DNA of 64,000 nucleotides from Hygrophila difformis (Eukaryota > Streptophyta > Magnoliopsida > Lamiales > Acanthaceae), in the NCBI GenBank assembly GCA_030278955.1, contig JAOANR010000003.1:50378902-50442901 (forward strand), given 5' to 3'. Made by a program: the position numbers and the translations under genes. The notes under the pieces were generated by a model that was given only the letters and a program-made list of their open reading frames with translations, was not told the DNA's origin and made no database searches. This document shows, piece by piece, positions 3,328 to 52,058 of the stretch. Positions within the stretch are counted from its first letter, which is position 1. Each line of letters begins with the position of its first letter.

Positions 3328-3406
3328 CATCTGTTCATACTACATCACTAGGGTTTCCGGAAATCGAAAAACTTCCGGGATGGATAAGTAGCGCGGTGCA
3401 AGAATC

Positions 3407-3990
3407 ATGGCAGAACAACCCGCACCTGCAAAGAGAGATATTCTGGAGCTTAAGTTCATTTCAGCAGTACCAGAAATAGTCAGGAAAGGTTCTTATCCGG
3501 TCTTTCAATTTATTAAATTACAGAGACCTGATATGATTGCCTTCAACAGAGTTAAGTCTATGGATGAGAGGGCACCATTGGTATCTTCAATCAGCGAAGA
3601 TGAAATCTCCACCCGACGAGCATGGGGATTCTGGGTCTGTCTCACCGAGATGGAAAAGGTTAAATATCCGTTTAAAATATTCTCAAACAATTTAAATGGA
3701 CCGTTCCTGGTTAATTCTTAAACAGGGAAAAGCACAGAGTTTGCGGAAACCTCCTTCGAAAAGAAGAGGTTGTTCATCTGGGAAAATAAATTGCCAGCAA
3801 CCGAGTCTACCAGAAAGAAGGCATGCAACATGATGCATGTTGGCCAATGGGATAACCACATATGTCTATATTGTGCATAACAGGAGAAACCCCTATTCGG
3901 TACAAAGATCCGGGTAACCCAGAAAAAATCCGGACCCGAACAGGACAAAGGGAAGAAACGTCCAAAAAACTTTCACAAGCCAAAGTAAGA
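3407..3990 (+). pseudogene. Second caulimovirid downstream ORF, unknown function, frameshifted
   Basis: An ORF begins at ATG 3407 and runs 104 codons to 3721. Directly after, the next frame stays open from about 3721 to 3880 and contains C and H residues (MMHVGQWDNHICLYCA), suggesting the same protein continues after a frame change. A further K-rich stretch follows to about 3990. By position, last ORF before the promoter, it could be a transactivator-like or other accessory protein, but I see no recognisable motif. The first part has the odd composition of a folded domain (RAWGFWVCLTEMEKVKYPF). Confidence 0.35.
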
Positions 3991-4156
3991 TTAGCTGGAT
4001 GTAAAAGAAAGAGCGGTGTTGGCAACACTCATAATTAAAAGCCGACAAAGAAGGGCAGTAAATGGCCAACAAAAGAAGGTGGAGAGTTTACAAAAAGCCA
4101 CCTAATGCAATAATTCCAAAAGGACAATAATGTAGCCAGTGGAAATTAAGGCCAAG

Positions 4157-4176
4157 TGACGAACGCAGTGACGTCA
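4157..4176 (+). promoter_or_regulatory. as-1-like element (paired TGACG motifs)
   Basis: TGACG at 4157-4161 and TGACGTCA at 4169-4176 are in the same orientation with a 12-bp repeat distance, as in the as-1 element of the cauliflower mosaic virus 35S promoter that binds TGA-type bZIP factors. It lies about 50 bp upstream of the TATA box at 4226, close to the spacing in the 35S promoter. Confidence 0.75.
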
Positions 4177-4225
4177 CAAGGATTTAGAGGAAGATTGGAA
4201 TTCGGGATTTAAGTCTGCGGGCGCC

Positions 4226-4235
4226 TATAAATAAA
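4226..4235 (+). promoter_or_regulatory. 35S-type TATA box of the caulimovirid
   Basis: TATAAATAAA stands 50 bp downstream of the as-1-like pair and after the last viral ORF. Transcription would start near 4255-4260 and read into the leader. The poly(A) signal at 4440 is about 180 bp downstream of the expected start, giving the short terminal redundancy that caulimovirid genomic RNAs have. Confidence 0.75.
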
Positions 4236-4439
4236 GGAGTTTGAAGCAGATGGAAGGCATCAGAAATCCTCCGAACTCTTCAAAAAATAAGTTGTATTTC
4301 CTTTCTGCAAAATTTCCTTTCTGTATTTGTTTTCATATGGGGTCAGTCCCCCAGAGTCAAGCATCCTCATATATGAGGAGCTAAGTGTCAGTCTTCTCCA
4401 TTAGGAGAAATATTTCTGTAATATTTTCAATATTTCTTC

Positions 4440-5830: not shown

Positions 5831-6714
5831 GTTAATATACATGCTCACACTTTATTAAAAAAAGAAAAAAAATCCCTTAATTAATTATCTATTACCGGAG
5901 TATATTTTTTCATTTTAACTTATACTACTTCATGTACTTGGGCAATAATGTGAGACAGATTGAAGATCAGCTTTCGATTTTTTTGTACGGGAGAAAAGGG
6001 ACAAATTTTGACTAGAATTTTAAATGAATAATTTAAAATCCTCATCACATATACTATAACTCAACCAATTCCAGATCGACTGTATCAAATGATAAATTAA
6101 TGCCATTATGGACCAACTATATTTCTAGTTGCATTATTAATGCTGAGATGATGGAATCATCAAATTTTATCTTTTTCTATCTCAAGCCAATTACGACTAT
6201 TTCGAAACATTTAGTTCAAGACAATTTTATAGTTTTAAAATTATTATTACAAGAACAAATTAATTAATTAATTAATTACTCTATTCAATTTTTAAATAGT
6301 TGTCTTTTCAATTCAATTTTAATCACTAATATTGTATCAATTAACCCATAAATTTCAATTTTAACCTTCAACTAAACTTTTTCGTAATAATATGAAGAAA
6401 TAATATTTACATAAAATAAATGGTAATATAGTAAAAACATAATATAACTATCTATAAATGACAACTATTGTGTAACACTTTTTAATTTAAAAAAAACAAT
6501 TAAAAAGTAACGGGGATTAATTAATGTTAATTACTCAATTTTCAAAATTTTAAAGTGGTGGGCTGGTAGTTGAAACAAACTAGTCACTAGTTAGCCATCT
6601 GGATCATTTATGATTAATCATCATTATGACATAAATTGAAATCCCCCTTTGTGGCATTTTGTGATTAGTTGGAAAATGGGGTCCTTCCAATTATAAATTT
6701 ATATTATTTTTATT
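5831..6714. other. AT-rich intergenic DNA
   Basis: No ORF, repeat or RNA gene can be supported. There is a short (TTAA)n run near 6260. Confidence 0.5.
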
Positions 6715-6865
6715 TTTCCGAACAACCTATACACTAGGCTAGAAAATGATAGTGAGAGTTCATGCCACACAAATTGCAAAGGGAAAAAAGGATAAAGGGG
6801 GCCAGATGGGGAATCGGACGGAGTTTGGGGACTTGACTACGATGGTAAATCCTCAACCCCAAATT
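6715..6865 (-). mobile_element. Degenerate SINE-like repeat
   Basis: Shares the phrases CACACAAATTGCAAA, GGATAAAGGGG and a B-box-like CGATTCCCC (reverse strand) with the copies at 19610-19740 and 63795-63935. The internal sequence is much diverged. Confidence 0.35.
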
Positions 6866-7636
6866 TATACAATACTAATCATTGTTATTTGTTCAATTAT
6901 TTCACTCATGCAAAATTAGGTGCAAGTTGTGAGTTCTTGACTTTTTTTTTTTTTTTACAATTTAACAAATGACAATTGTGGTTAAAAAGTCCACTTCTGC
7001 CTATGTGGTGAAATTTAAATCCACTCCTAGAAGCATGTGATTTGATGATTGTTTATATTTCTGTTGTTTTTTTTAAATAGTATTATTGATTATATATAAT
7101 GTAATGTAATTTATTATCATAGAGCTTATATATGCTTCATAAATGAAATCTCATTTCCTGCCTACACTTATAAATAATTTTTTTAAAATTAAATTCCATG
7201 TGTATGAATTTATGATATGAGGTGTTTTTTTCACTTTAAGTTACTAGCTAGGCCACGTTTGATACGTGTCACTTTAAGTCCATGTATTGATTTTTACGGC
7301 AATCCGATTATGATGCATATAATTGAAAATTCTGTATATGATGAATATTGAGAGAGTATGGTTATGTGATAAGAGAATAGAATTATGTAAAGTATTTAAA
7401 GTGACACCACAAAATTATATTCGGAAATCACATCATAAACATTATAAAATCCACCCGTGACATCACAAACCCTCTTCTGCTAGCACATTCTGCTTGTGCA
7501 GAATCTGCTCAATAACCGATTCCTATTTTTTAATACTATTTTTATATATTAGAAGTTTTTTTTAAAAAAAATATTTTAATGATCGATGTAATTTGCTATC
7601 AAAACTCATTAGTTAATAAAGGTTAACCAAAAATAA
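6866..7636. other. AT-rich intergenic DNA
   Basis: Nothing recognisable; only homopolymer runs and low-complexity AT sequence. Confidence 0.5.
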
Positions 7637-7900
7637 AGGCCCATGTTTGGCAAATAAGCTAAATGAAATTAGCTTATTCTAATTAATTTAAGATAAATTA
7701 GCTTATTTAAAAAGACAAAATAACTTAAAATAGTTCAATCAGCTCTTGTTGAATCTGCTGCAAATAGCAGCGTTTTGGAATTAGCTTATTCTACGCAAAA
7801 AAAATTGTCTCAAAACTACCAAACAACTATTTTTAACTAATTTATTACTCAAATTACTCACATTAGTTAACATCTAACATCTAATTCCCAAACAAGCCCA
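7637..7900. mobile_element. MITE with GGCCCATGTTTGG-type ends
   Basis: The left end GGCCCATGTTTGGCAA and the right end TTCCCAAACAAGCCC form imperfect inverted repeats of the kind found on plant PIF/Harbinger or hAT MITEs. A diverged copy with the same inner phrases (AAAATAACTTAAAA, AATCTGCTGCAAATA, CTAACATCTAATTCCC-like) lies at 52720-52970. The target duplication is not clear. Confidence 0.55.
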
Positions 7901-35527: not shown

Positions 35528-36595
35528 ATGGATTTTTGGAGTAGCACACCATCTGTAGATGATCCCTTTGGAGGTGGTGAATTGATGGAAGCACTTGAGC
35601 CTTTTATGAAAAGTGCTACCTCCCCACCTATTTCTTCTTCTTCCAATCTCCCTCCTCCTTCTTCTTACCCTTCTTTTCCTAGCTCCACTCCATTTTCTTC
35701 TATTCCCATACCCAATGAGAGCTTCTATCCCTATGTTACCTCTTCCTCAAGTTCCTACCCCTACACTTCTTACTACCCCTCTTCCCAATTTGATACTGAT
35801 TCCAACATGGGCCAGTACCAAATCCCGACCCAAGATTATTCATTTGGGCTGGACTGCACCCAGCCTAGCTACTCAGCTGGGCCTGACCAATTTTCATCCT
35901 ATCAGATCCAGGAATATCAAGGATATAATTCTTTGGGCCAAGCCCAATATCAGGCCCAACTAGATTATACAGCAATGCAAAGCAACGAATATCTTGAGCC
36001 GCGGCCCATTTCGATGAAGCGGGATGGATCGCCGCAGAAGCCCACGAAGCTGTACAGAGGCGTCCGGCAACGCCACTGGGGAAAATGGGTGGCGGAGATC
36101 CGCCTGCCGAAGAACCGCACGCGCCTGTGGCTCGGCACCTACGACACGGCGGAGGAGGCCGCACTGGCCTACGACAAGGCGTCGTACAAGCTCCGGGGAG
36201 ACTTCGCCAAGCTCAATTTCCCGCACCTGCGCCACAGCGGTTCCCACATCGGCGGCGAGTTCGGCGAGTACAAGCCGCTCCACGCCAGCCTGGAGGCCAA
36301 GCTGGAGGAGATTTGCAAGACGCTGGCCGAGGGCAAAAGCGTACAATCCGGCAGGGCCAAGAAATCACGGTCGTCGAAGCAGAAACCGGCCGCGGCCGCG
36401 GCCGCCGAAGAATCAATCGGTAAAGATAAAATCTTCGGCAAGGTGGCGGAGTCCGAGAGCGACGGATCGGGTTCCGGTCAGGATCCGGATCCGAGGTACC
36501 CGGACTTCGGCGCGGCACAGGAAACCAATTGGGAAATGGGCGCGTTGAATTTGCAAAGATATCCCTCTTGTGAGATTGATTGGTCTGCTTTATAA
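35528..36595 (+). CDS. AP2/ERF transcription factor, DREB A-6 (group I), RAP2.4/WIND1-like
   Basis: A single-exon gene of 355 codons. The AP2 DNA-binding domain is at about residues 175-235: [38 protein letters not shown] and [12 protein letters not shown]. The V and L at the positions that separate DREB from ERF types and the [16 protein letters not shown] wording are those of the A-6 group, which includes RAP2.4 and WIND1, nuclear factors that bind GCC-box or DRE sequences in stress, light and wounding responses. The N-terminal part is rich in S, P, Y and Q, with [19 protein letters not shown] near the start (residues 12-30) as a likely conserved motif. An alanine run (AAAAAAEE) and an acidic end follow. 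The 3' half of the gene is much more GC-rich than its surroundings. Start: first ATG with the conserved N-terminus. Confidence 0.93.
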
Positions 36596-37310: not shown

Positions 37311-38055
37311 TGTTAACCGAGAATTTTTTTGAGGGAGAAACCTCTTTTTTGATTGATGAGTATCAAAAGGATTACAAGAATTGCAGAAAGAAAATACACG
37401 AAAATAAGAAAGCTGTAAAGGAATGGAAAATTTGCAGGAATGTAAAAGCAGGAATTGAACTGCAGAATAAAACAAGTGCAGAATGGAAATGCAGGAAAGT
37501 AAATCCTCTTGAGAGGGAGTTGTGTGAAGGTGTCTGTGTTGAGTGCCTCCCTTCCTCCTTTTATAGGAGGAAGCCTCCTTCTGTAGAGTCACGGGAGGCT
37601 TCCTGTGGAGAGGCGTGATGCCTCTGTAGAGCCACGGGAGGCCTCTCTACAAGCCTCCTTCTGTGAGCCACGGGAGGCCTCCTGTGTAGAGGCGTGATGC
37701 CTCCTGTAGAGCCGCGGGAGGCCTCCTGTAGAGAGGCGTGAGGTCTCCTGTAGAGAGGCGTGCAGTATAGGAGGCTTGACTTCAGGGGTGGCATGAAGCA
37801 CGCGGATGGCTTTGATTGGCAAGCTCTGGTTATTATCCGGAAAAATCTTGAATTGGACCGTGCCAAGAAAAATAGATTGGGCCTTTTGGAAGTGTGTTCT
37901 TTTTTCCGGATATATTTTCACGGACTGGGCCTCCGGATATATTTTTACTGAACTGAAGACGCGTCTTCTCTTCCGGATATATTTTCACGGACTGGGCCTC
38001 CGGTTTTTCACGGACTGGGTCATGTAAATTTGGATGGGCTATAATTGGGTTAACA
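37311..38055 (-). repeat. 3' LTR of the Tat-type element
   Basis: 745 bp. It contains repeated GGAGGCCTCCTGTAGAGAGG blocks (37570-37765) and three copies of TTTTCACGGACTGGGCCTCC-like sequence (37915-38020). No base difference from the other LTR was found. Confidence 0.95.
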
Positions 38056-38068
38056 GATGCCCCCCTCG
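38056..38068 (-). other. Polypurine tract of the Tat-type element
   Basis: On the - strand GAGGGGGGCATC immediately precedes the 3' LTR. Confidence 0.8.
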
Positions 38069-38127
38069 CGCATTTTGTCTGATTAGCATTTTAAGACAAA
38101 TTTGCGCGCTTAATTTGGGAAGTTTCA

Positions 38128-38169
38128 GCCCATTAAGGCCCATTAGGGAAAAACCCTAACCATATAAAA
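38128..38169 (+). promoter_or_regulatory. Promoter of the antisense PMD gene
   Basis: GCCCATTA (38128-38135), GGCCCATTA (38137-38145), telo-box AAACCCTAA (38151-38159) and TATAAAA (38163-38169) follow each other in 42 bp. Site II/UP1 motifs with a telo-box are typical of plant genes expressed in dividing cells, such as ribosomal protein genes. The expected start is near 38195, followed by a pyrimidine-rich leader. The promoter lies inside the element, about 70 bp from the polypurine tract. Confidence 0.7.
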
Positions 38170-38194
38170 ACTCTTTCAAATCTTCTAACCATCA

Positions 38195-38813
38195 TTTTCC
38201 TTCAACATTTCTCTCTCTTCTTTTCTTCCTCCCTCATTCTCTCCCTCTCTTCTTCCCTTATTCCTCCACCGGCCGTCGGAAATCGCCGGGAAGCCGTCGC
38301 CGTCGTTCAGATTCCGGCCGTAGAGATCGTCGCCGGACGTCGTCAAGGCCGCCGTGCCGCCGCCAGGCCGCCCGTCGCCTCCGCCAGGCCGCCTCGCCCA
38401 GGCCGCCCCGCCTGCCCAGGCCGCCTGCTCGCCCAAGGCCGCCCCCTCCTCCGGCCGCCCAGCACGAGCCGCCTGCCGCCCGGAGTTGCTGAAGCCGCCC
38501 GGAGTATCGCCGAGGCCGCCTGCGCGCCGAGGCCGCCCGTGCCATCGCCGAGGCCGCCCGTGCCCATCGCCGAGGCCGCCCGTGCCCATCGCCGAGGCCG
38601 CCCGTGCCTCCGCCCGAGGCCGCCCGTGTCTCCGCCCCGAGGCCGCCCGTGCCTCCGCCCGAGGCCGCCCGTGCCTCTGCCAAGGCCGCCCGTCACCACG
38701 CGCAAGGCCGCCTGGGCGCCACGCTGAAGGCCGCCTGCTGCACACCTGGAAGCCGCCCGGCCGCTGTTCGAGGGCTCTCTCTGCTTGCAACCAGGTCCTC
38801 TCTTATTCGCTTC
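38195..38813 (+). other. Long AUG-free, GC-rich leader of the PMD gene
   Basis: Some 620 nt between the expected start and the first ATG (38814) contain no ATG in any frame. 38340-38750 is dense with AGGCCGCCCGTGCC-like units. Frames on either strand here are by-products of this composition. Confidence 0.6.
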
Positions 38814-41800
38814 ATGGGCCAGGTTAGTGAGCTATCCTCCATTTTATATTTTGCTATTTATATTTTGGTGGAGACTTATATGGGGATATCATGAAGGTTG
38901 ACGGGTATTTTATCATGTTTACGATTATGGGAGGGATGTTGGACTGAATTTTGTGAACTTTGCTTGCTTTTCTTGATTCCGCTGGATTCATGCTTGTCTT
39001 TGCTAAATTTATTGCTCGTATGATAATCTCGCATTTGATATCATAGAACATAGCAAGATTACTCACATTGCCTTCTCTCATAGACTTAGAGAACATAAAG
39101 CATCATACGGGATTTAGAGAAAGTATCAGATCGTGTTATCTCTTGCTTAGGCGTTAGGTTAACTTAAAGTTAGCTTCTAGTCATCCCATACTTTGTTCAT
39201 GACATAGGATCCAGTAGAGGACACTACACGGGCTGCCACTTCATTGGCTCAGGCCGCCCCTCACCAGCCCGGGTCCTCCTCGGCCGCCGCTGTTCAGGCC
39301 GCCTTTCCTGTGACTCAGGCCGTCTCCGATCGTCGCCCTGAGTCGTCATCGACTGCCACTCAGGGGCCATCAGCCGCTACTGACCAGGCCACCATCTCGT
39401 CAGCTCGGGCTGTCCGGAGTCGTCAGCCAGGGCAGGCCGCTGCTCCCTTGACCGGATTTGCTGCCTTGTCGAGCAGCATGACTTTTCAGGTTAAAATGGC
39501 TTGATTAGCACCTTCTCATGTTGACTTAAATCTTGTTAGCCGCTTGACTTATCTGGGTATCTATGTAGGACATTGCCAGGTCCACACAGCCGCATTTTGT
39601 TCAGTTCACCACCCCTAGTACTGCTCAGGCCGCCACTTCGGCTTCTCCTCTGACTATTCAGGTTTGTCTGATCTTACCTGCTTGTTCCGTTGCCTATGTT
39701 CGTATCCTTCAATCTCATGCTTGTTTTTCTCATCTGCAGCGTCCGCTTATTCCGGATTCTGATGGTGAGGCATATGAGTTCGATCGTCGGCAGGAGTCGG
39801 AGCTTTTTCTTCGGCCGTTTCATAGTACGCCTGAGCGCGCGAATGATTCGAGACGGTTTTTATCTTGCAAGTTACTTGTCACCGAGGCCGCCTTTAGCAG
39901 TGCCCTTGTGTCTCGCACTAAACCTATTAAATCCCAGCCTCAGCATTTCGGTATTTCTACCTCCAAGTCCAAGGCTAAAATTCCCAGGACTCAGATTGAC
40001 GATGATAGCAACCTAGGTCAGTATACTTCATGGGTGCATCGGATGTCGGGTCGCACTTCTGATTGGCGTGAGTGGGGGATCGATGAGGCCATCCGTCTAT
40101 CTACTAAGCCTGTGGTGATAGACCATCGCTTGCTTTACTATCTTATGGGCTTCTGGAACTCTTCTGTTAATGCTTTTCAGCTTCCCTGTGGATTTGTCGG
40201 TCCTACACTTCTTGATGTGGTGATGATCACGGGGCTTCGTGTGGTCGGATCGGAGTTGACCCAGTCCGCTGTTGATGACCCTAGACTTGGTGCGTCGATT
40301 TGCCCTAAGGGCAAAGAGGCCAGGCGATACCCGGCTTACATTGTGCACAATAAAACGTCAGGGCCTTATCCTTCTACGCGAGACGAGCACGTAGCCTTCC
40401 TTTTACTGTGGTTTAGCCGGTTTGTTATTTGTTCCAGTGCACGTACTGTTCTTAGTACTGCACTGCCCCTCGTCTTAGGGCTTATGAGTACAGAGACTCG
40501 AGCTATAGGCTCCTACTTCCTCGGCACTCTGTTTAGCGGCATGGCTAAGCTTTCTGACAAGCTGGCCGAAGGACTAGATCCCTCTACCACTGCTTCTGGG
40601 CCGCTATGGTTCTTGCAGTTATGGGTCCAGCTATATTTTCCCCAACTGTTCACAGGGGTAATACGCCCTAGTCCGCAGGAGGTTTCGGAGGGTGATCCGA
40701 TAGGTGAGATATTGGCTGCTCAGTCTGTGAGTATTAGCCGGGACGGCCTTCTGAACCGAGATGGTCTGGGGATTATCCACTGGCTTTATCATTATCGGCC
40801 GTCCTACCATGATCTATTTGTTTATGCCTCCGTTCCTCGGTTGCTGGCTACGCTGATATGTTTCCCTACTCATCCACGTGGCATTCATGGGGAGTTTACA
40901 TGGAATATCATCATGAAACCTCACATGCTTTTGAGTGGGGTGAAGAGGACGGACGCTTATAATCCTTTCATCGCTGAGCCTTATTGCCCTCACCTGCTTG
41001 CTCGCCAGTTTGGCTGCCACCTCGGGCTTCCTCGCCGGGTGAAGTGGCCGACTCGTTTTACCAGGAAGGAGAGGATGACACCCGCAGCTATCAAGGCTGT
41101 GATAGCCTTTTCGTCTCGTCTGACGCTCTCCAGCTATCTCCCGTTTACTCCGACTGGATCGCTGGCTGCTGGTTTTATGGCGTGGTGGACGCCGTATATC
41201 ACTTCTATTTTGCCGCCTTATGATCAGCTGGCGTCTCGTTTTGGAGATTCAGTCACTTCGCGTCAGTCTCGTGTTTCAGCTTCTCGCGGGAGTACCTCGA
41301 GGTCCAAGAAGTCCCAGTCTGGTCCAGCCTCTTCCTCCCGTAAGCGCCGAAGAGGTATGTTGAATCATTTCATTGTCAATACAGCGTTTCATACACTGCC
41401 CTTTTTGATATTGTCTCTTTGTCTGCAGTTGATGATGATGTTTCAGTTAGCGCCGAGCAGTCTGGTTCTGTCGAGGAAGATGCCAGTTCAAGTGATGATG
41501 GATCACGCTCAGGTGGTGAGGAGGGTCATGAGGGTGATGAGGAGGACCATGAGGATGAGTCGGTAGACCCCTATGATGATGATCATGGCCAGGCGGATGA
41601 TCATGTTGATTCCTTGCCTGCAACTACTGCCGACCAGGTATGTTTTGCCACTGTTAGACTTTTTATTTGCATTTTTTTTTTTTTTTTTTTTTTTAGTATC
41701 GTAGTGACATCGCGCTTGACCGCTCAGGTTGATCCACGTTTCTCTCGGTCCGCGATTGGCTCAGCTGGCCATGACTTGGTTCCACAGGTATTTCTTGGTT

Positions 41801-42936
41801 GTCTTCCCTCTCCTTTTATGCTTATTTTGTTTAAGCAATGAATTCTAAGGATGTTTGTGTCCTCCAGGTTCCTCCTGCAGACATTATTCGGGTTGCGGAT
41901 CATATTTTCCAGACTAGTCAGGTTGGCCCTTCGGTGATCTCTCAGGTATTTTTATTGATTATGTCGTTTCTGTTTTTCTTTTCCAAGGACATGTTTTAAG
42001 GATCTCCCATTCTAGCTTCCTATGGACCAGGCAGACCATCCTACTACTGCTGCTCCTATTACTTCAGTTGATTCAGTCGCGCCGCCTCTTCCGGTATGGC
42101 TCACTTCAGCTTTCGTGTTAATGAAATTTTCTTGGCATATACTTATGTGAAGCTGTCTTCAGGTACCCATGATCCGTGCCTCAGTCCCAGCGACCTCTGT
42201 TCCAGGTCCTTCGGTGCCTACTCCTGCTGACAGGATTGTTTCATCATGCGAGGCGTTTGACCGCCTTCTATCCACTCATGTTGATCGGCTCTCCACTGAG
42301 GTGTTCTCTAGTCTTGATCGCCTGTTAGACGACGTCAGCGCAGTTTCTGCCTTTACCGAGGATGCTGACTTTCTCAGCTTTTCAGAGCGCGTTGCTGATT
42401 TAGCTGTTTCTTATCCTGCTCACAGTAGCTCTGCAGATCAGTCTGCTCACGATCTGACGCTGCTTGATGACCTCGAGGCACGATACCGCGAGGTTTGTCT
42501 TCAGATAGAGGCTATCCACCCTCAGCGCGAGCAGTTGTCTACTGATCGCGGGGTTAGAGAGAGTCGCAGATCCCATCTTAGGGATGTTGCTACGCGAGCA
42601 GAGCGTGATATTGAGGAGGCAGAGCGTTTCATTCTTGAGAGGAGGCGTATCCTCCAAGAAGTTAACGAGGAGCTTGCTACCTTAGAGCCTGTCTTGGCTG
42701 ATATTTCTTCCCGAGCTGCTGAGTTAGAGACTTCCTATGGTCGTTTAGCCGCAGATGAGCGTGACTTATCGGCTGAGTTATCGGGAGTTCGGACTCGTCG
42801 GCTTCGGTTGTCGGTTCGCGCTCGTGCTTCGGCAGCCGCACTTCTTCGTCTGACGGACATGTTCGAGCGCACTCGTGATCAGTGGGCCCTTATGCGTCGG
42901 CGTATACTGAGTGGTGTTAGGCAGCCTCTTCCTTAG
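38814..42936 (+). CDS. Antisense plant mobile domain (PMD) gene within the retrotransposon, nine exons
   Basis: Exons: 38814-38822, 39208-39489, 39569-39661, 39740-41354, 41429-41637, 41728-41787, 41868-41945, 42016-42093, 42163-42936. All introns are GT-AG; spliced length is 3198 nt, 1065 codons, no stop inside. Residues 4-128 are low-complexity, rich in Q, A and S (QAA motifs). About 220-620 are a PMD (PF10536-type, formerly aminotransferase-like): YTSWVHRMSGRTSDWREWGI, LLYYLMGFWNSSVNAFQLPC, GPTLLDVVMITGLRV, LWVQLYFPQL. Residues 675-735 are strongly acidic. About 885-1040 are a coiled coil (RAERDIEEAERFILERRRIL). Relatives MAIN and MAIL1 are nuclear and act in genome stability and transposon silencing; PMDs also occur in plant transposons. 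It converges on pol, the stops being 147 nt apart. Intron 5 could use another AG at 41696, which gives an early stop. Confidence 0.85.
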
Positions 42937-43083
42937 TTTTTTGCACTGTTTTGTTTTCAGTACACTTTTGGGTCAGCCCATCGGCCTTGTGGTGGGCAAC
43001 TCTTGCCTTTACTTTGGGAGATTACTGTTACTTTTTTGGCCGGGCTTGTGACTTGGCCACTTTTTTGATGCACTTTGCGTTTC

Positions 43084-45414
43084 TTATTCAGATTCCCACA
43101 CTGATGGATAGAACACTTTGAGGTATTTTGCATTTATACTCTGTTTGTGTTCTTGGCCATCGATGTCCATTAGTTTGTATGCACCATTAAGCAGTCTTTG
43201 CGTAACAATGAATGGTCCTTCCCAATTTGGAGACCACTTGCCTGTTTCATTGCTACGCACCCCCGAGGGTAGAATCACCTTCCATACTAGGTCTCCCTCG
43301 TTAAAAGTTTTGCCTCGAACCCTCTTGTCGTAATGTCTCGCCATTTTCATCTTTTGGCGACGGATATTTTCCAGAGCGGCGAGCTTGTCTCCGTCTGCTG
43401 TCTCCAATTCTTGCAACATGGTTTCTTCATACTTAGATAAGTCTAATTGATGCTGCTGAGCCACCCTTAGAGAAGGAACTGTTATTTCCAAAGGCAAAAC
43501 AGCGTCATGACCATATGTCAAGTAATACGGCGTAAACCCTGTAGCTGTGGATTTAGAGTTTCTGTAAGCCCATAGAACCTCTAATAAGGTCTCATGCCAT
43601 TTCCTAGGCTTTTCGCCTACCACCTTTTTGATCATACTTATTAAGATCTTATTGGTGGCTTCAGCCTGACCATTTGCTTGGGGATAGTACGGAGTGGAAT
43701 GATAAATGCGGATTCCAAACTGCTTGGCAAAAGCTATAAACTTTTCGCCAGTGAACACTGTACCTTGATCGGCAGTGATTGTTTGGGGAATCCCAAATCG
43801 ATGTATGAGCTCAGTTACGAACCTAATTACATCGCTTTGGTCAATTTTCCTCATTGGCCACGCTTCTACCCATTTGGTGAAGTAGTCAGTGGCCACTAGT
43901 ATAAATGCATGGTTTTTGGATGACGGTGGATGAATTTTTCCAATGATGTCCATCCCCCAGCCATGGAATGGCCAAGGCTTAATGACCGTGTGTAATTCTT
44001 CCGCCGGTACCCTTTGAATCGGGCCGTGCTTTTGGCAAGCTTCACACCCGCGAGCATACATGATACAGTCCTCCATGATGGCTGGCCAAAAGTATCCATG
44101 ACGGTGGATGCTCCATCTCATGCTCGGTCCTGCTCGATGGGAGCCGCATATCCCCTCGTGAACTTCTCCCATTACCAACTTCGCCTCCTCGGGACCTACA
44201 CACTTGAGCAGTAATCCATCGACCGCCCTTCGGAATAACTCACCATCTATCAGTGTGTATCGTAAAGATTTGATTTTTAGCGAGCTGTCCCCTCCAGACG
44301 ACGGGGTCTCGAGATATTGTATGATTTCGGTTCTCCAATCACCACTCTCTTGTTGGCTCTCAGATTCACTTGCGATGGCGGCAATGTGTGGTGCCCCCCT
44401 AGGGCGACAAGACTGCCAGCCTGAAGCAAGTTGTGCAGCCTCGTTGGCCTCTTGATTTTGGCTTCTGGGCACATGTGTGATGGTAGCGTCCGAAAACTTG
44501 TTCAATAGTTCTAGTGCTGTCTCATAGCACTTAATCAATCTGGGACTCTTGCATTCATATTCTCCGGTTAACTGCTTCATGATGACTTGGGAGTCTCCAA
44601 ATATTGTAATTGATTTCGCACCTTTAAGCAATGCAGTTTCGAGGCCAAATATCAAAGCTTCGTATTCTGCTTGATTGTTGGTGGTGCCAGGCTCTAACTC
44701 CCGAGCAAGCTTCCAATGTTCCCCAAGAGGACTAGTGATTGTAATGCCGGCCCCCGAGCCGCTGCTTGCACAAGATCCGTCAAAGGTTAACTCCCATAGT
44801 TCGAATCCTATAAAGGAAGCTTCTCTGGGATCTTCTGACAGCACCAATGAAGGGTGTTGAGCTAAGAAATCAGCTAAAGCTTGTCCCTTGATTGCCTTTT
44901 GAGGAACGTGTACAAGGGTAAAAGGACTGATCTTCATAGCCCACTTAGCTTGTTTACCCTTCAATGCTGGTTTGTGCAAAAGGGTTTTTACCAAGTCAAA
45001 GGGAGCCACTATATGGACTGTTCTTGGCAGCATGTAGTGTTCTAACTTGTTGCAGGAGTATACCAGGGCGTAACACAGCTTTTCTAATGCAGTATATCTT
45101 ACCTCTGGCCCTTGTAGAGTCTTGCTAAGGTAATAGATAGCCCTCTCCTTGCCGCCTTCATCGTCCTGTGCAAGCAAGCACCCGATAGATTCTTCGGCGG
45201 CCGATACATATAGTTTCAAAGGTATTCCAGGTTTTGGCGGCACTAATACTGGAGGATTGACCAATGCTCTTTTTATTTCTTCGAAGGCTGCTTGATGCTC
45301 ATTCGTCCAAAGAAACTTCTCGTTCTTTCTTCCTTTAAGCAAAGTAGTGAACGCTTTCATCTTGCCGGCAGCATTGGCAATGAATCTCCTTAGGAAATTG
45401 ATTTTGCCCATCAA
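43084..45414 (-). CDS. Tat-type pol part: two RNase H domains and integrase
   Basis: 776 codons. The first RNase H (residues about 65-190) reads LYVSAAEESIGCLL where an active enzyme has a DAS, so it is a degenerate connection domain. The second, archaeal-type RNase H (about 205-340) has LTFDGSCASSGSGAGI, NNQAEYEALIFGLETA and IFGDSQVIMKQL, and appears active. The integrase has the HHCC region (HEGICGSHRAG...ARGCEACQKHG), and D, D, E in GWGMDIIGK, ITADQGTVF and NGQAEATNK, then a C-terminal domain ending at a TAG/TGA near 43084. It is in the same frame as the reverse transcriptase ORF and separated from it by one amber codon at 45418-45420. Confidence 0.93.
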   Translation of the reverse strand: MMGKINFLRRFIANAAGKMKAFTTLLKGRKNEKFLWTNEHQAAFEEIKRALVNPPVLVPPKPGIPLKLYVSAAEESIGCLLAQDDEGGKERAIYYLSKTLQGPEVRYTALEKLCYALVYSCNKLEHYMLPRTVHIVAPFDLVKTLLHKPALKGKQAKWAMKISPFTLVHVPQKAIKGQALADFLAQHPSLVLSEDPREASFIGFELWELTFDGSCASSGSGAGITITSPLGEHWKLARELEPGTTNNQAEYEALIFGLETALLKGAKSITIFGDSQVIMKQLTGEYECKSPRLIKCYETALELLNKFSDATITHVPRSQNQEANEAAQLASGWQSCRPRGAPHIAAIASESESQQESGDWRTEIIQYLETPSSGGDSSLKIKSLRYTLIDGELFRRAVDGLLLKCVGPEEAKLVMGEVHEGICGSHRAGPSMRWSIHRHGYFWPAIMEDCIMYARGCEACQKHGPIQRVPAEELHTVIKPWPFHGWGMDIIGKIHPPSSKNHAFILVATDYFTKWVEAWPMRKIDQSDVIRFVTELIHRFGIPQTITADQGTVFTGEKFIAFAKQFGIRIYHSTPYYPQANGQAEATNKILISMIKKVVGEKPRKWHETLLEVLWAYRNSKSTATGFTPYYLTYGHDAVLPLEITVPSLRVAQQHQLDLSKYEETMLQELETADGDKLAALENIRRQKMKMARHYDKRVRGKTFNEGDLVWKVILPSGVRSNETGKWSPNWEGPFIVTQRLLNGAYKLMDIDGQEHKQSINAKYLKVFYPSVWESE

Positions 45415-45417
45415 TGA

Positions 45418-46494
45418 CTACAATTCTTTGAGATTGGTTGGTGCACGAGCCTCCATGATGGCCTTAGCTTTGTTCTGGTCTACCTCAATGCCCCTCTCAT
45501 GTACCAAGAAACCTAGGAAATTCCCTGCTGCCACTCCAAAGGCACATTTAGCTGGATTAATTTTCAATCCATGCTGCCTCATTCGGATGAAGGCACTTTC
45601 CAGGTGAGCCAAGTGTTGGCCAAATTCACATGATTTTACCACTATGTCATCAATGTACACTTCAAGTGTGTGACCGATTAAATCATGAAAAATCATGTTC
45701 ATGGCTCTTTGGTATGTTGCCCCTGCGTTTTTTAATCCAAAGGGCATGACTACCCATTCAAAAATGCCGACTGGCCCTGGGCAGCGAAAAGCTGTTTTAT
45801 GCACATCATTTTCAGAAATGAAGATTTGATTGTATCCAGAATAACCATCCATTAATGATAAAAACTTGTGGCCGGCGGCCGCATCAACAAGCATATCGGC
45901 CATAGGCATCACATATTCATCCTTGGGTGTTGCCAAGTTTAAATTTCTAAAGTCTATACAGACTCTTAATTGACCGTTCTTTTTTATAACAGGTACAATA
46001 TTTGCAAGCCATTCCACATAACGACAAGTTCTAATGTAACCTGCTTTAAGAAGTTTCTCGATTTCGGCCTTTATTTTTGGGATGGTGTCTGGGTCGAACC
46101 GTCTTGGCGGCTGCTTATGAGGTCTGAACTCTGGGTGCGTTGGCAACTTATGTTCCACTAGCTCCCTTGATAGTCCTGGCATATCTGTGTACTGCCACGC
46201 AAAACAATCCTTATACTTATGAATCAGCTCCACTAGCTGGCGTCGCTTTTCATCTGATAATGACGCACTGATCTTGGTCAGCTTTGGTTCTGTCTCTGTT
46301 CCGAGGTTGATGTCTACAAGTGGTTCATTGGCTTCCGGACTAGGCAACATCCGCTTTATAGGAGATGGCCATTCAGATGGCCGACTGTCAGTTGGATTTT
46401 TGGACTTGATTTCGGCACCCATCATTATTTCAGTGTTGGCGAGCCGCTGCAACAAGTCTTTATAAATGTCGTAGCTGCTCGTCATGCAGAGCAT
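45418..46494 (-). CDS. Tat-type reverse transcriptase
   Basis: 358 codons. Motifs: QPPRRFDPDTIPKIKAEIEK, LRVCIDFRNLNLATPKDEY, FLSLMDGYSGYNQI, MPFGLKNAGATYQRAMN and active site LEVYIDDIVVKS (near residue 280), then GFLVHERGIEVDQNKAKAI. It starts at an ATG overlapping the end of gag-protease by 13 nt in the -1 frame; a second ATG overlaps the gag-protease TGA as ATGA. It ends at TAG in NLKEL-stop-SLMGKINFLRRF, where relatives have glutamine (CAG), so one C-to-T change separates it from RNase H and integrase. Whether the amber codon is suppressed is unknown; the following TCA is not the known plant-virus readthrough context. Confidence 0.93.
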   Translation of the reverse strand: MLCMTSSYDIYKDLLQRLANTEIMMGAEIKSKNPTDSRPSEWPSPIKRMLPSPEANEPLVDINLGTETEPKLTKISASLSDEKRRQLVELIHKYKDCFAWQYTDMPGLSRELVEHKLPTHPEFRPHKQPPRRFDPDTIPKIKAEIEKLLKAGYIRTCRYVEWLANIVPVIKKNGQLRVCIDFRNLNLATPKDEYVMPMADMLVDAAAGHKFLSLMDGYSGYNQIFISENDVHKTAFRCPGPVGIFEWVVMPFGLKNAGATYQRAMNMIFHDLIGHTLEVYIDDIVVKSCEFGQHLAHLESAFIRMRQHGLKINPAKCAFGVAAGNFLGFLVHERGIEVDQNKAKAIMEARAPTNLKEL

Positions 46495-49400
46495 GATGCT
46501 TCATGTCGGCTATATGCAGAACGTAATTTGAAGCCGCTTGTTGTGAAGTCAATGGATTCCAGATCCATGTTCATACCAATTAAAGCTGATGCAGGTTGAA
46601 TGTCTTCTAAGTAGAAGATCGCCTCATCATTGTTGGCGTCCGGTCCTGCAAAGGGTTGAGGATCTGCCTCCACCAATTCTATCTGGTCACCATCCCAAAT
46701 TAACAACTGTTGGTGGAGGGTGGATGGCACACACTGCGCCATGTGAATCCAGTCGCGCCCAAGCAATGCTGAGTAACACGTCTTAGATTTCACCACGAAG
46801 AAGGCCACTTTGATGGTCTTGGATCCAATAGTGACGTCCGCCGTTATGAATCCGGCAGGTTGTGTTGCTTCTCCTACAAAGCTGCACATTCTGACCCTGG
46901 TAGGGATCAGATCTCTTTCACTTTTTCCTATCTTTCTCAAAGTTGACATCGGCATCACATTGGCTGCTGCTCCATTATCAACGAATACCCTGCTCACAGG
47001 ACGCCCATCAAATTGAGCCTTAACATACAAGGGTTTCAGTTGCCTTGTCTGGGCAACTTTGGGTTTGGCAAACTGTGCCACGGCCTCTGAAGCATCATGT
47101 CGACCGCCAAGTTCTTGCGTGGGAGGTGCATCCCTGGTTGGATGGGACAATTCGGCTATCATTTCATCCACTCTTTCGATAAGCCTTGCGAACGATGGCT
47201 CTTCCTCATCCCATATCTCGGATTCGGTATCGCTTATCTCTTCATCGGCCGCCAACCCAAAGACCCGTATAGGCACAGAAGGATCATTTGGCCCTTCTTT
47301 CCTATCGTCAGCTTCTTTAAGTTCTTTGTTCAAATTCTGCCAAAAAACCTCATCTTCAAGATCCATGCCGTCTAATTCAAAATGAGGCTCCTCATCAATA
47401 TTGAGGTTCACATTACCCCACATATCATCTTCATACCCTTCGTCAATATTCATGTCTTCCATCGTGCCATATTCATCGGTCACGATGCCTAGGGCGTTAA
47501 TCCCAACTTTCGGCTTATCGAGATTGGCCTCCACAGCGGCCTCCACCTCTGTAGGTGTAATAGCACCAAAATTCACTTGTGATGCCTCATTGGTCGCTTG
47601 AAGTGCTTCACTAGTTGATTTTGTTTCATCTTGTGCCTGCGACTTCTTCTGGGTTTCTACAGTTTTGCAATAGGCCGTGAATCCTTCAAAACTGTGTGGT
47701 TCACTTCCAAATTCACCGGCTTCATGAGCCGCCAAATACGCCATGTATTTCATCAGTACACTAGCCATAGCCATGTTTGAAGGAGTCATGTCCATTTTGT
47801 CCAGCTGCTCAATGAACTTCTGTCCCGCAGATTTGACCTTGTTTCCTCCTTCATCAGATTCGGTTATGGCGACCGCTTTCCCTTTGTCATTAGAAGCTGA
47901 TGATGAAGTGATAGTCTGAGGAAGTCCAGCTTTGGTTACTTTAGGTCTTGTTGATGATGACGGCTGAGGCTTTCGTTCTACCCACTGCAGCCTTTCTTGT
48001 ACTGGCCTCCTAGTGGTAGAAGGTGATGGTGGTTGTAACCTTTCTCTCACTGGCCTCCTGGCGGAGGAAGGCGGTGGCTGCCTCCTCTCCAGTATTGGTT
48101 CCCTAGCGGAAGGTGATGGCGCCTGAGGTGGTCTTCTTGAGGCCTTATAAAATCTTTCCTCACGAGGTGGTATGGGTGAATCAGGTTCTCTTGCCACCGT
48201 CCTACTGTGTGTCTTCTCGTGAAGGGGTCTCTGCTGTTGGGATGTCTCTCCTTTGAAATAAGTTGGTTGTATTGGCTTCCGAGGCCTGGAAGTTTCCAAC
48301 TTATGAATTTGTGCCTCCCACTGCCGCATTTCCTCGGCACATCGTCTTTGAGCCCGCCTAAATTGACTCCTGGTCATGGGTGGCGGCTCCTTGTGGGTGG
48401 CTTTGTTCTGAGCCCTATTCTTCATCCACCTTTCAATCTCGACTGGATGTTCTGGTCGCCTCATTAAGGTTGGAACCACCTGTACACCATGCCTATAATC
48501 ACGAGCAATGGGTTGGTGTTTTCCATTGTCATGGATCTCCACCGCCTGCTTAGAGATCTCAATCCTCAAAGGAGGGTTCTTCTTCTTGTGGTGCTCTCTT
48601 TCCTCAGCTTCCAGGACCTTCTTGAAGTCCTCCTTCGACATGTTCTTAAACTTTGGTTGTTTACTGCACAACTCTTTTCTTTCATGATCGGACTCATCAG
48701 ATAATAAGTCCACATCCTCCTCCTCGATTTCAATGTGTTCCTTTCCTCTATTATTCTGGCTACTGGAGCCACCATCTTCTGGATTTGGGATGAGTCCAGA
48801 AACACCAATTGGCAGTTGAGGGAATGGATCTAAATCCACTTTCATACCTGCAATTTTCAAACGACCCTCTTTTATTTTGTTCTGTATGGCCGTTCTAAAA
48901 CTCCTGCATTTAGTAATGCTGTGAGTATACGAATTATGCCACTTACAAAATGCTCGGCCTCGAATTTCCTCGGCCGCTGGTAATTTTTGCCCTTCAGGCA
49001 ACTTGATTACACCGTCTTTGAGTAGGGCATCGAACACTTGGTCCGCTTTGCCCATGTCAAAAAGGTCTTCTTCAGGCTTATACTTAGCCTCTCTTTGTTT
49101 TGGCGGCTTGAGAGCCGCACATGTATGTGGTTTGGCTGTCTGTACTAGCTCAGCAACAGCCACCTCTACAAGTTCGTCCTCATCATCACTGAGTTTTATT
49201 TCTTCGAAATGGACTCGACGCATAGGACGTTTCTCTTCCTGCTCCCTCAGGAATTTTTCCACACGGGCCGCTCTCTCGGCCAGCTGGGCAAGGTCAGTTG
49301 CATCCTGCACAATTAAATGTTCTCTTAATTTCGGTAGCATATTAGCCACTGCTATATTGGCTATTTCTTTATCGGGTATTGCTATAGTACATCGGCCTTT

Positions 49401-51260
49401 AATGCGTTGTAATCTATTAATAAAAGAACTTGCCGTCTCATCGGCAAATTGTTTGGTGTTAGTGAGATCTGCAAGACTAACCTGCGACAGAGGTGTATAA
49501 AATCTGTCGTGAAATGCCCGCTCGAGATCGGCCCAATTTTGAATTGAATTTGGCCGCATGGCTGCAAACCAAACAAATGCGGGTCCAGTCAAAGAGGAAC
49601 TGAACAATCTTAACTTCAACCAGTCGTTGGCCGCTGCTTCCCCACACTGAGCAGTAAACCTGCCCACGTGTTCTACGGTTGATTTGTCGTCGTCCCCCGA
49701 GAACGTGGTGAACTCGGGCATTTTGAAGCCTTTAGGGTAAGGCTGCATGGTGTCTACCCAATCCGGGTATGGTTTCCTATAGGTGGGTCGTTCCATCGGC
49801 CTCAATTGAATGCCGAAATGTTGCTGCATCATATCTGCTAAGGATTCGGGCGACACTACCGGCGCCTGTGTAGGAGGCATGGCAGCTTGTTGATGTACGG
49901 CGGCCGGATGAGCCATGGCGGCCTGAGGCATGGCGGCCTGGACCATGGTGGCGGTCGAGACCAAGTTGGTGGTCGGATGACTCGTGTTGATGGCCGGCCG
50001 ACTTATGTTGGCGGCCTGAGGTTGCATGGCGGCCTGGTGTGAACTGGAAGCCTGGGTGGCCAAGTATGGACTGGCCTGTTGTTGGGCGGCCTGAAGTGGG
50101 TTGGAGGTCTGAAAGTGGGCGGCCTGCAGGGAGGCGGCCTGATGATATGTGGCCTGTGGTAATGGGGAGGCCTGATGATGGGCGGCCTGAGGCAATGGGG
50201 AGGCCGCCTGATAGGAGGCCTGATGTAATGGGGAGGCCTGATGATGGGAGGCCTGAGGCAATGGAGAGGCCACCTGATAGGAGGCCTGATGCAATGGGGA
50301 GGCCTGATGATGGGAGGCTTGAGGCAATAGAGAGACCGCCTGATAGGAGGCCTGAGGTAATGGGGAGGCCTGATGGGAGGCCTGAGGCAATGGAGAGACC
50401 GCCTGATAGGAGGCCTGAGGTAATGGGGAGGCCTGATGGGAGGCCTGAGGCAATGGAGAAGCCGCCTGATAGGAGGCCTGAGGTAATGGGGAGGCCTGAT
50501 GGGAGGCCTGAGGCAATGGAGAAGTCGCCTGATAGGAGGCCTGATGGAATGGGGAGGCCTGATGATGGGAGGCCTGGAGCAATGGGGAGGCCGCCTGATA
50601 GGAGGCCTGATGTAATGGGGAGGCCTGATGATGGGAGGCCTGGAGCAATGGGGAGGCCGCCTGATAGGAGGCCTGCAACGGGGAGGCCGCCTGGGCGGCC
50701 TGAGACACTGGGGAGGCAGCCAAAGGTATGTTGGTGCCTTGAGGTTGCAGGTGTCCTCCTCCAGTATTATGCACGGCGGCTGGGATGGAAGCCACCGCTC
50801 CAAATGGCGGAACAGATGCCATTAAGTATCCTGATGGAGCATACATCATAGGAGGTGGTGCTCCAAACTCAGATAGTGATGGCTGACCAGTCCCCCAAGT
50901 CCTTTGTAGACCGCCATACGGTCCTGTAACACTTGGTGACACATTCATGCCATGGATATATCCCTCTGGAGTATGCAGGGATCCACATATCCTGTCGGTT
51001 TGATCGGCCATGGCAGGCCGCAATACATCCATAAGGTGCCTTGTTAATAGAGGCATGAATTCAGCCATCGATTCATTCATCGATAGCCGTATTTGTTCCG
51101 AAAAAGTTGGGACCTGCATTATCCCCTGCGGTTGTTGAGAGGTAGTCGCTGTATCATCGACGTTCTCAGATGGTGTTCTTACTGGAGTTTCTTCAGGCAG
51201 CGACATTTCTCCAAATTTTTGTGTTAAGTCCCTTACTACCCGTCCGGATCTGAGTTGCAT
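46482..51260 (-). CDS. Tat-type gag-protease with Q/A/S/P repeats
   Basis: 1592 codons, uninterrupted, starting MQLRSGRVVRDLTQK. Residues about 185-390 are repeats of the type QASYQAASPLPQASHQASPL. The capsid domain (about 500-700) shows FTTFSGDDDKSTVEHVGRF, WLKLRLFSSSLTGPAFVWF and DLERAFHDRFY. A nucleocapsid-like FCKWHNSYTHSITKCRSFR lies near 770. A long disordered charged region follows. The protease (about 1410-1540) reads SRVFVDNGAAANVMPMSTL with ALLGRDWIH; its active site is D-N-G rather than the usual D-S/T-G, as seen in some relatives of this branch. The ATG is 54 bp from the primer site, and no other start precedes it. Confidence 0.92.
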   Translation of the reverse strand: MQLRSGRVVRDLTQKFGEMSLPEETPVRTPSENVDDTATTSQQPQGIMQVPTFSEQIRLSMNESMAEFMPLLTRHLMDVLRPAMADQTDRICGSLHTPEGYIHGMNVSPSVTGPYGGLQRTWGTGQPSLSEFGAPPPMMYAPSGYLMASVPPFGAVASIPAAVHNTGGGHLQPQGTNIPLAASPVSQAAQAASPLQASYQAASPLLQASHHQASPLHQASYQAASPLLQASHHQASPFHQASYQATSPLPQASHQASPLPQASYQAASPLPQASHQASPLPQASYQAVSPLPQASHQASPLPQASYQAVSLLPQASHHQASPLHQASYQVASPLPQASHHQASPLHQASYQAASPLPQAAHHQASPLPQATYHQAASLQAAHFQTSNPLQAAQQQASPYLATQASSSHQAAMQPQAANISRPAINTSHPTTNLVSTATMVQAAMPQAAMAHPAAVHQQAAMPPTQAPVVSPESLADMMQQHFGIQLRPMERPTYRKPYPDWVDTMQPYPKGFKMPEFTTFSGDDDKSTVEHVGRFTAQCGEAAANDWLKLRLFSSSLTGPAFVWFAAMRPNSIQNWADLERAFHDRFYTPLSQVSLADLTNTKQFADETASSFINRLQRIKGRCTIAIPDKEIANIAVANMLPKLREHLIVQDATDLAQLAERAARVEKFLREQEEKRPMRRVHFEEIKLSDDEDELVEVAVAELVQTAKPHTCAALKPPKQREAKYKPEEDLFDMGKADQVFDALLKDGVIKLPEGQKLPAAEEIRGRAFCKWHNSYTHSITKCRSFRTAIQNKIKEGRLKIAGMKVDLDPFPQLPIGVSGLIPNPEDGGSSSQNNRGKEHIEIEEEDVDLLSDESDHERKELCSKQPKFKNMSKEDFKKVLEAEEREHHKKKNPPLRIEISKQAVEIHDNGKHQPIARDYRHGVQVVPTLMRRPEHPVEIERWMKNRAQNKATHKEPPPMTRSQFRRAQRRCAEEMRQWEAQIHKLETSRPRKPIQPTYFKGETSQQQRPLHEKTHSRTVAREPDSPIPPREERFYKASRRPPQAPSPSAREPILERRQPPPSSARRPVRERLQPPSPSTTRRPVQERLQWVERKPQPSSSTRPKVTKAGLPQTITSSSASNDKGKAVAITESDEGGNKVKSAGQKFIEQLDKMDMTPSNMAMASVLMKYMAYLAAHEAGEFGSEPHSFEGFTAYCKTVETQKKSQAQDETKSTSEALQATNEASQVNFGAITPTEVEAAVEANLDKPKVGINALGIVTDEYGTMEDMNIDEGYEDDMWGNVNLNIDEEPHFELDGMDLEDEVFWQNLNKELKEADDRKEGPNDPSVPIRVFGLAADEEISDTESEIWDEEEPSFARLIERVDEMIAELSHPTRDAPPTQELGGRHDASEAVAQFAKPKVAQTRQLKPLYVKAQFDGRPVSRVFVDNGAAANVMPMSTLRKIGKSERDLIPTRVRMCSFVGEATQPAGFITADVTIGSKTIKVAFFVVKSKTCYSALLGRDWIHMAQCVPSTLHQQLLIWDGDQIELVEADPQPFAGPDANNDEAIFYLEDIQPASALIGMNMDLESIDFTTSGFKLRSAYSRHEASCSA
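50090..50705. repeat. Minisatellite within gag
   Basis: Units such as TGATAGGAGGCCTGAGGTAATGGGGAGGCC recur with a period of 57-72 bp, around ten times. They encode the QASYQAASPLPQASHQ repeats on the - strand. Long frames on the + strand here are shadows. Confidence 0.88.
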
Positions 51261-51291
51261 ACACTTTCAAGCGGATATGGTTTCCACTTCG

Positions 51292-51310
51292 GGTCCCACT
51301 GGGCGTGCCA
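51292..51310 (-). other. Primer-binding site of the Tat-type element
   Basis: On the - strand, three bases after the 5' LTR end, TGGCACGCCCAGTGGGACC reads. Sequences of this form follow the LTR in Tat/Retand relatives; I cannot name the tRNA with certainty. Confidence 0.6.
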
Positions 51311-51313
51311 AAT

Positions 51314-52058
51314 TGTTAACCGAGAATTTTTTTGAGGGAGAAACCTCTTTTTTGATTGATGAGTATCAAAAGGATTACAAGAATTGCAGAAAGAAAATAC
51401 ACGAAAATAAGAAAGCTGTAAAGGAATGGAAAATTTGCAGGAATGTAAAAGCAGGAATTGAACTGCAGAATAAAACAAGTGCAGAATGGAAATGCAGGAA
51501 AGTAAATCCTCTTGAGAGGGAGTTGTGTGAAGGTGTCTGTGTTGAGTGCCTCCCTTCCTCCTTTTATAGGAGGAAGCCTCCTTCTGTAGAGTCACGGGAG
51601 GCTTCCTGTGGAGAGGCGTGATGCCTCTGTAGAGCCACGGGAGGCCTCTCTACAAGCCTCCTTCTGTGAGCCACGGGAGGCCTCCTGTGTAGAGGCGTGA
51701 TGCCTCCTGTAGAGCCGCGGGAGGCCTCCTGTAGAGAGGCGTGAGGTCTCCTGTAGAGAGGCGTGCAGTATAGGAGGCTTGACTTCAGGGGTGGCATGAA
51801 GCACGCGGATGGCTTTGATTGGCAAGCTCTGGTTATTATCCGGAAAAATCTTGAATTGGACCGTGCCAAGAAAAATAGATTGGGCCTTTTGGAAGTGTGT
51901 TCTTTTTTCCGGATATATTTTCACGGACTGGGCCTCCGGATATATTTTTACTGAACTGAAGACGCGTCTTCTCTTCCGGATATATTTTCACGGACTGGGC
52001 CTCCGGTTTTTCACGGACTGGGTCATGTAAATTTGGATGGGCTATAATTGGGTTAACA
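51314..52058 (-). repeat. 5' LTR of the Tat-type element
   Basis: 745 bp, identical to 37311-38055. On the - strand a TATA box (CCTATAAAAGGAGG) is at 51557-51570, so the genomic RNA should start near 51530 and run through gag. Confidence 0.95.

Follow-up and report, generated by a model that had tools for sequence, protein, structure and literature searches.

Plant long terminal repeat (LTR) retrotransposons are generally intronless, with Ogre and EVADE as exceptions (PMC12786077), and several of them carry extra open reading frames (ORFs) in antisense between pol and the 3' LTR, as typified by gene23 of maize Grande and by rice RIRE2 and Silene Retand (PMC7264820). Gene23 possesses its own upstream promoter and codes for a nuclear protein, an antisense promoter is also mentioned for HTLV, and a cost of convergent sense and antisense transcription, which could produce double-stranded RNA in the element described here too, has been discussed for such ORFs (PMC7264820). 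Plant mobile domains (PMDs) are known from gypsy elements (PMC5418596, PMC9289625), are present in 57% of Ogre elements (PMC6317226), and occur in the PMD-MULEs (Mutator-like elements), for which Ikeda et al. name grasses and Amborella (PMC5418596). The PMD has been called a domain of unknown function, and it has already been suggested that transposable elements may make PMD proteins against silencing (PMC8616336); the host PMD proteins act with PP7L in the silencing of such elements (PMC7156037). VANC21 binds a 9-base motif that occurs densely and in one orientation in tandem repeats of its own non-coding DNA, and causes loss of methylation at these repeats (PMC5735166, PMC10398659). Here we describe an intron-rich PMD gene carried in antisense by a 14.7 kb LTR retrotransposon (37311-52058, - strand) of Hygrophila difformis, lying in a window of 64,000 nt (contig JAOANR010000003.1 of GCA_030278955.1, positions 50,378,902-50,442,901, forward strand), to which all positions below refer. 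The gene is organized as follows:

38814..42936, + strand: PMD gene of nine exons, 1065 codons and a stop, in one frame across eight GT-AG introns
38814-38822, 39208-39489 and 39569-39661, + strand: exons 1-3, from the spliced frame
39740..41354, + strand: exon 4, holding the entire plant mobile domain (PF10536 at 40076-41188; structure model of the exon)
41429..42093, + strand: exons 5-8 (41429-41637, 41728-41787, 41868-41945, 42016-42093), acidic linker, from alignment and composition
42163..42936, + strand: exon 9, heptad-like C-terminal region, from the gene model, periodicity and dN/dS

The predicted introns are 69-385 nt long with a GC content of 0.31-0.42, against 0.50-0.67 in the exons. 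The spliced protein matches PF10536 with an E-value of 1.8e-31 (110.1 bits, cut-off 34.9) over residues 241-611, covering positions 1-346 of the 347 in the profile; up to an E-value of 1 the Pfam scan recovered beyond this one sub-threshold CENP-H match only, and no match to DUF1985 or DUF287, the domains by which VANC homology would be recognized. A basic cluster, RKRRR, lies at residues 662-666, residues 668-740 are 38% aspartate and glutamate, and residues 906-1052 show a hydrophobic period of 3.51, reached by 3 of 2000 shuffles (the observed value has a slight advantage, as only half the number of periods was tried on the shuffles). The original prediction of a spliced nine-exon frame of 1065 codons opposite to gag-pol, encoding a PMD, an acidic linker and a coiled coil, is thus borne out, including the significance of the profile match. 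The gene occupies the place of an antisense extra ORF between pol and the 3' LTR (the aORF-3R or eORF-3'R type), and an intron-blind ORF scan splits it in two (39908-41566 and 42169-42936); such ORFs, of at least 250 codons, were used in a published survey (PMC6317226).

A PF10536 search of the plant's own genome (915 Mb) recovered at least 146 matches, with 117 of 3306 first-look candidates scored. From 34 places picked by eye in the tier of about 112-117 bits we compared 20 sequences (L009-L028), a sample which, being chosen by PMD match, is biased toward conserved PMDs and in which elements without a PMD are invisible. In all 20 the PMD gene lies antisense beside pol (the fetched pieces of L010 and L021 hold only part of pol). 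Exons were aligned for the 19 copies reaching the ATG, L019 being left out as it is without the 5' end of the gene, and the counts that follow are not independent because the copies share ancestry. All eight GT-AG pairs are kept in 15 of the 19, the exceptions being L014 (a deletion over intron 5), L017 (the intron 1 donor), L021 (two sites) and L018, in which one acceptor is off in one alignment and AG in another. The frame is open to the terminal stop in 15 copies and interrupted in L015, L021, L024 and L028, and 12 of the 19 combine all splice sites with an open frame. With L014 set aside, 33 of 36 exon length differences are multiples of three, the remaining three being two cases of extra bases past the stop (L011, L013) and a frameshift (L015), as against 16 of 72 intron length differences; exon 5 is the most length-variable exon. 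Since this exon plan holds in 19 further copies, the gene is not a product of chance. Clean intron loss was found in none of the 19 aligned copies, L014 having lost intron 5 together with adjoining exon sequence. This agrees with the earlier proposal that the introns are kept through transposition, and is as expected if the packaged RNA is of the opposite strand.

Substitution patterns show that purifying selection acts on the PMD frame, at a strength near that seen in pol, so that the dN/dS check proposed with the original prediction also had the expected outcome. Median pairwise dN/dS (up to 21 sequences, 169-210 pairs) was 0.16 for the PMD, 0.34 for its whole frame, 0.48 for the N-terminal part, 0.46 for the linker and 0.29 for exon 9, with 0.15 for the RNase H-integrase piece and 0.09 for the reverse transcriptase (RT). 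Codon-likelihood estimates of omega on the 19 sequences common to all sets were 0.187 for the PMD, 0.353 for exon 9 and 0.178 for RT, and holding omega at 1 with the tree unchanged gave a 2dlnL of 99.3, 28.6 and 115.3, respectively, against the null; the null models took the best of eight kappa values, and as that for exon 9 lay at the grid edge (13), its 28.6 is an upper bound. The constraint on the PMD is therefore close to that on RT by one measure and looser by the other. A comparison of intron divergence with dS was set aside because of many gaps in the intron alignments.

Upstream of the ATG, three features are apparent:

38151..38169, + strand: candidate promoter box AAACCCTAACCATATAAAA of the antisense gene, recurring across copies
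38193..38813, + strand: inferred 5' leader of the PMD mRNA, with its start placed from the TATA box and no upstream ATG
38346..38735, + strand: 17 AGGCCGCC cores, all on the + strand, spaced by 14-23 bp except for a single gap of 77 bp

The promoter-like box AAACCCTAACCATATAAAA sits about 100 bp inside the 3' LTR boundary, in a region only 68-87% identical between copies, and is present, exactly or slightly relaxed, in the window copy and in 15 of the 19 other copies, two of which (L017 and L021) deviate in its first part; a TATAAG variant is seen in L011, L020 and L025, and none in L022. From the position of the TATA box we infer a transcription start near 38193. Counted from 30 nt behind the TATA to the ATG, the window leader contains no ATG against 2.6 expected from dinucleotide shuffles, and the leaders of 16 sequences contain 6 against 42.9 expected, with 99 on the other strand. 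This depletion is consistent with ribosome scanning along the leader on the PMD strand.

Within 650 nt upstream of the ATG, a count measured from the ATG and hence unaffected by the placement of the LTR end, AGGCCGCC occurs 317 times in the 20 sequences, against 2.6 expected, and is never reversed. Cores (with at most one mismatch) are most commonly spaced by 22 bp (86) or 21 bp (76), followed by 13, 19 and 14 bp, and when aligned on GGCC the conservation spans approximately A-GGCC-GCC and drops to near background on both sides, so that the core is kept and the spacers are not. The form AGGCC(G/T)CC occurs 66 times in the window, always within the element, where it is found in the two LTRs, the leader, PMD exons 2-4 and the gag N-terminus, with none in pol and none in the AT-rich 49 kb of the window outside the element. 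It is also found in five further gag/5' LTR pieces, in lower numbers in two of them, L035 and L036. The N-terminus of gag (QAS/QAA repeats; 49917-50694, mostly - strand) and PMD exons 2-4 (39251-39885, + strand) both encode Q-A-A/S or E-A-A by means of AGGCC(G/T)CC, and the motif is therefore repeated within coding DNA of either strand. The LTR core AGGCCTCC is missing from at least five copies; these LTR counts leave out L013, L014, L017, L022, L026 and L028, in which the LTR end is misplaced (leader lengths 364-624). The short repeats on the LTR side vary between copies, and CCGGATATA occurs at least three times per copy in 12 of 20 sequences.

The predicted fold of the PMD matches the DNA-bound domain of VANC21, the model of the window protein alone being borderline; by prediction, then, PMD and VANC21 share a fold. 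Sequence searches of the PDB returned nothing with the PMD exon and only matches above an E-value of 0.2 with two alignments, and Foldseek comparison of the PMD with viral models gave nothing at 0.001. Because the predicted VANC21 fold is paired here with a VANC21-style array, we favor a VANC-like, self-targeting model. The + strand gene would be a genuine accessory gene of a recently active Tat-lineage Ty3/gypsy family, driven from a promoter of its own that adjoins the 3' LTR on the inner side and provided with a long, ATG-poor leader, and its eight introns would outlast retrotransposition because the RNA that is packaged comes from the opposite strand. The encoded protein would most likely be a nuclear, sequence-specific DNA-binding protein of the VANC21 fold, binding the arrays of AGGCCGCC cores in the terminal region of the element (the leader, the LTR in some copies and perhaps gag) and thereby keeping silencing marks off them. 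As a whole this is a tentative reading, to which we give slightly less than even chances. The sequence itself shows the gene with its conserved exon plan, the purifying selection, the promoter-like box, the shortage of ATGs and the array, and structure prediction shows the common fold; the start of transcription, the splicing, the nuclear location, the binding of the array and the anti-silencing are proposed on these grounds. Interference with host silencing, which the original prediction had raised, gains in plausibility through the fold match and the array, and these point to a mechanism more specific than the one first put forward.

The array could alternatively act as an enhancer of the antisense promoter, bound by a host factor of the ERF type that recognizes GCC-box-like sites, or as an RNA-level element of the leader. 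Its location in the leader, in a single orientation in 20 of 20 sequences, would suit such a role, and the core contains GCCGCC, with AAGCCGCC also occurring. However, the form with AGCCGCC, that of the GCC-box, is in the minority (111 occurrences of AAGCCGCC against the 317 of AGGCCGCC in the same 650 nt), and the same core recurs in the gag repeats and some LTRs, so that we regard this explanation as rather unlikely.

The relatives of the PMD bear on another alternative, namely that the protein is a decoy or partner of the host MAIN/MAIL1-PP7L complex, with no DNA binding needed and the array unrelated to it. Host proteins from this domain family do work with PP7L in transposon silencing (PMC7156037), and their cellular type is represented in this genome by L005, which is closest to Penstemon and Rehmannia proteins. 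However, the element PMD gave no tblastn match to L005 at an E-value of 1e-3 and shares 26-28% identity with L001 and L002, which are likewise of the cellular type. In a tree of 25 rows (with PMD-B and PMD-C presumably the fitting clade names for its rows) it groups at 100/99 with 12 plant proteins, with a long branch, separate from both the cellular type and L001/L002; one of the 12, P0064, has an RNase H domain. With no interface known and the array left unexplained, we consider a decoy improbable. L001-L003, long genes in a single frame, were set aside as being of the cellular type. L029, L030 and L031 were considered as possible sister retrotransposon families and discarded, being of the MULE type: L029 and L031 lie beside a MULE transposase (PF10551 in both; in L029 the PMD frame is at 2412-4391, +, and the opposite one at 6612-7892, -), and the PMD of L030 lies opposite a frame with a SWIM zinc finger. 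MULE-associated PMDs are thus present in this plant too.

About as improbable is a role in replication, be it nuclear import, tethering of the integrase complex to chromatin or choice of the insertion site. The nuclear location of Grande GENE23 and the idea of an accessory factor (PMC7264820) would be in line with it, as would the basic cluster and heptad-like C-terminus of the protein. There is, however, no sequence tie to integrase, and trees of the PMD and of pol from the same copies (L009-L028) reject each other, with approximately unbiased (AU) test p-values of about 1e-30 both ways. The two modules are therefore not strictly inherited together, and the conflict suggests their exchange between elements by recombination. 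Finally, that the frame is a product of chance or decay, or a host gene that the element captured only recently and that has no function in it, is scarcely credible despite the four interrupted copies, given the codon-likelihood test and the 19-copy exon plan (which rule out chance or decay), the dN/dS far below 1, the contrasting exon and intron lengths, the same place in the fetched copies and the existence of long-tailed PF10536 proteins in Lotus (P0001, 1021 aa, domain at residues 131-498) and rice (P0003, 762 aa, with DUF1409 and a long tail behind the domain). A four-row profile search, which scored 7994 candidates sharing most words, recovered at least 76 PF10536 proteins, mostly from legumes where named.

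The retrotransposon that carries the gene comprises the following features:

37311..38055, - strand: 3' LTR, identical to 51314-52058, with an imperfect ~22-bp tandem repeat (TRF) bearing AGGCCTCC cores
38056..38072, - strand: polypurine tract, limits approximate, a + strand C-run inside the LTR end
43084..45414, - strand: pol, end of RT, RNase H, second RNase H and integrase (PF17919/PF17917, PF13456, PF17921, PF00665)
45418..46494, - strand: pol, reverse transcriptase (PF00078), interrupted at its 3' end by an in-frame stop
46482..51260, - strand: gag and protease (PF03732, PF13975), with N-terminal repeats also bearing AGGCC(T/G)CC
51314..52058, - strand: 5' LTR, identical to 37311-38055

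Its ends are TG...CA, flanked on each outer side by ACTCC as a 5-bp duplication, and the C-rich run directly inside the left LTR is the polypurine tract of a - strand element. The LTRs are, as originally stated, without difference over 745 bp, which with a substitution rate of 1.3e-8 per site and year roughly indicates an insertion younger than about 0.16 million years (upper 95% bound by the rule of three). In five other copies the LTR pairs, in the parts present, differ at 1/661, 1/633, 1/750, 3/583 and 10/577 positions, and between copies (the window copy and 19 of L009-L028) the LTRs are more diverged than the coding parts. The description of the gene as intact holds for the PMD gene and fails for the element, as pol of the window copy is broken by an in-frame stop at about 45415-45417; this site is uninterrupted in 16 of 18 other copies and gapped in two. 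The RT piece of these 18 is free of internal stops, with partial-codon gaps in seven, and the RNase H-integrase piece has a stop in 6 of 19 other copies. From 5' to 3' the Pfam scan gives gag and protease, RT, RNase H, a second RNase H and integrase. Angiosperm members of the Tat lineage are marked by an additional RNase H of archaeal type, which follows the first and precedes integrase, and in Ogre the gag-protease and pol frames lie about 274 bp apart on average, with an intron there in pea and Medicago (PMC6317226). By its domain order (PF17917 at 65-165, PF13456 at 211-329, PF00665 at 482-578) the element is assigned to the Tat lineage of Ty3/gypsy, and it is filed as Tat and not as Ogre because the Ogre-type gap is absent, the two frames (46482-51260 and 45418-46494) of the window copy overlapping by 13 nt (46482-46494) in different frames. 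An AP2-domain (PF00847) gene lies at 35528-36595, and the element sits about 0.7 kb downstream of the stop codon of that gene.

Proteins with a PMD have roles in plant development as well as in transposon silencing and are found in many gypsy elements, and a fold shared with a DNA-bound anti-silencing protein would give them a testable biochemical role, with the array as the DNA to test. More broadly, the plant mobile domain might be a VANC-type, sequence-specific DNA-binding fold of one origin, which gypsy elements employ, from an antisense gene with introns, to bind AGGCCGCC arrays in their own ends and reverse silencing, and which the host employs in its silencing factors MAIN/MAIL1. We put this forward as a possibility that is doubtful on present evidence and less probable than the model for this element; if true, plant silencing and anti-silencing proteins have one origin. 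The element also shows a way for a retrotransposon to carry an intron-rich gene.

Among described systems, the antisense extra ORFs, such as those of Grande, RIRE2 and Retand, resemble this gene in position, orientation and presence in most copies of a family (PMC7264820). The word "intron" is absent from the main text of that review of aORF-3R genes, whereas the gene described here, as read from DNA, has eight introns and encodes a complete PMD protein of 1065 residues. Ogre and EVADE similarly have introns within an LTR retrotransposon, but in the sense gag-pol RNA (PMC12786077). The PMD-A1/A2 of gypsy elements (PMC5418596) share PF10536 in a Ty3/gypsy setting, and the PMD studied here, a possible member of that group, stands apart from the cellular type in our tree; to what is described for them the present analysis adds the exon structure, the selection, the leader and the array. 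The intron structure of the PMD gene was not found in the open-access literature, as far as accessible, including PMC7264820, PMC6317226, PMC5418596, PMC9289625 and PMC12786077, nor was a structural link between PMD and VANC, which the texts naming both do not draw (the paper on structure 9LNJ lies outside this coverage). Thus, as far as our searches reach within that literature, the full intron structure, the selection on it, the leader with its array and the link to the VANC21 fold are new. HTLV-1 HBZ is a spliced antisense gene near the 3' LTR of a retroelement; it starts in the 3' LTR, whereas the promoter-like box of the present gene is internal to the element, a short way from the LTR, and the proteins are unrelated. 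For the VANC proteins of VANDAL MULEs, which belong to a MULE rather than a retrotransposon, no sequence similarity to the PMD was found; the array described here resembles, in arrangement alone, the target repeats of VANC21, and makes a candidate target for the PMD protein.
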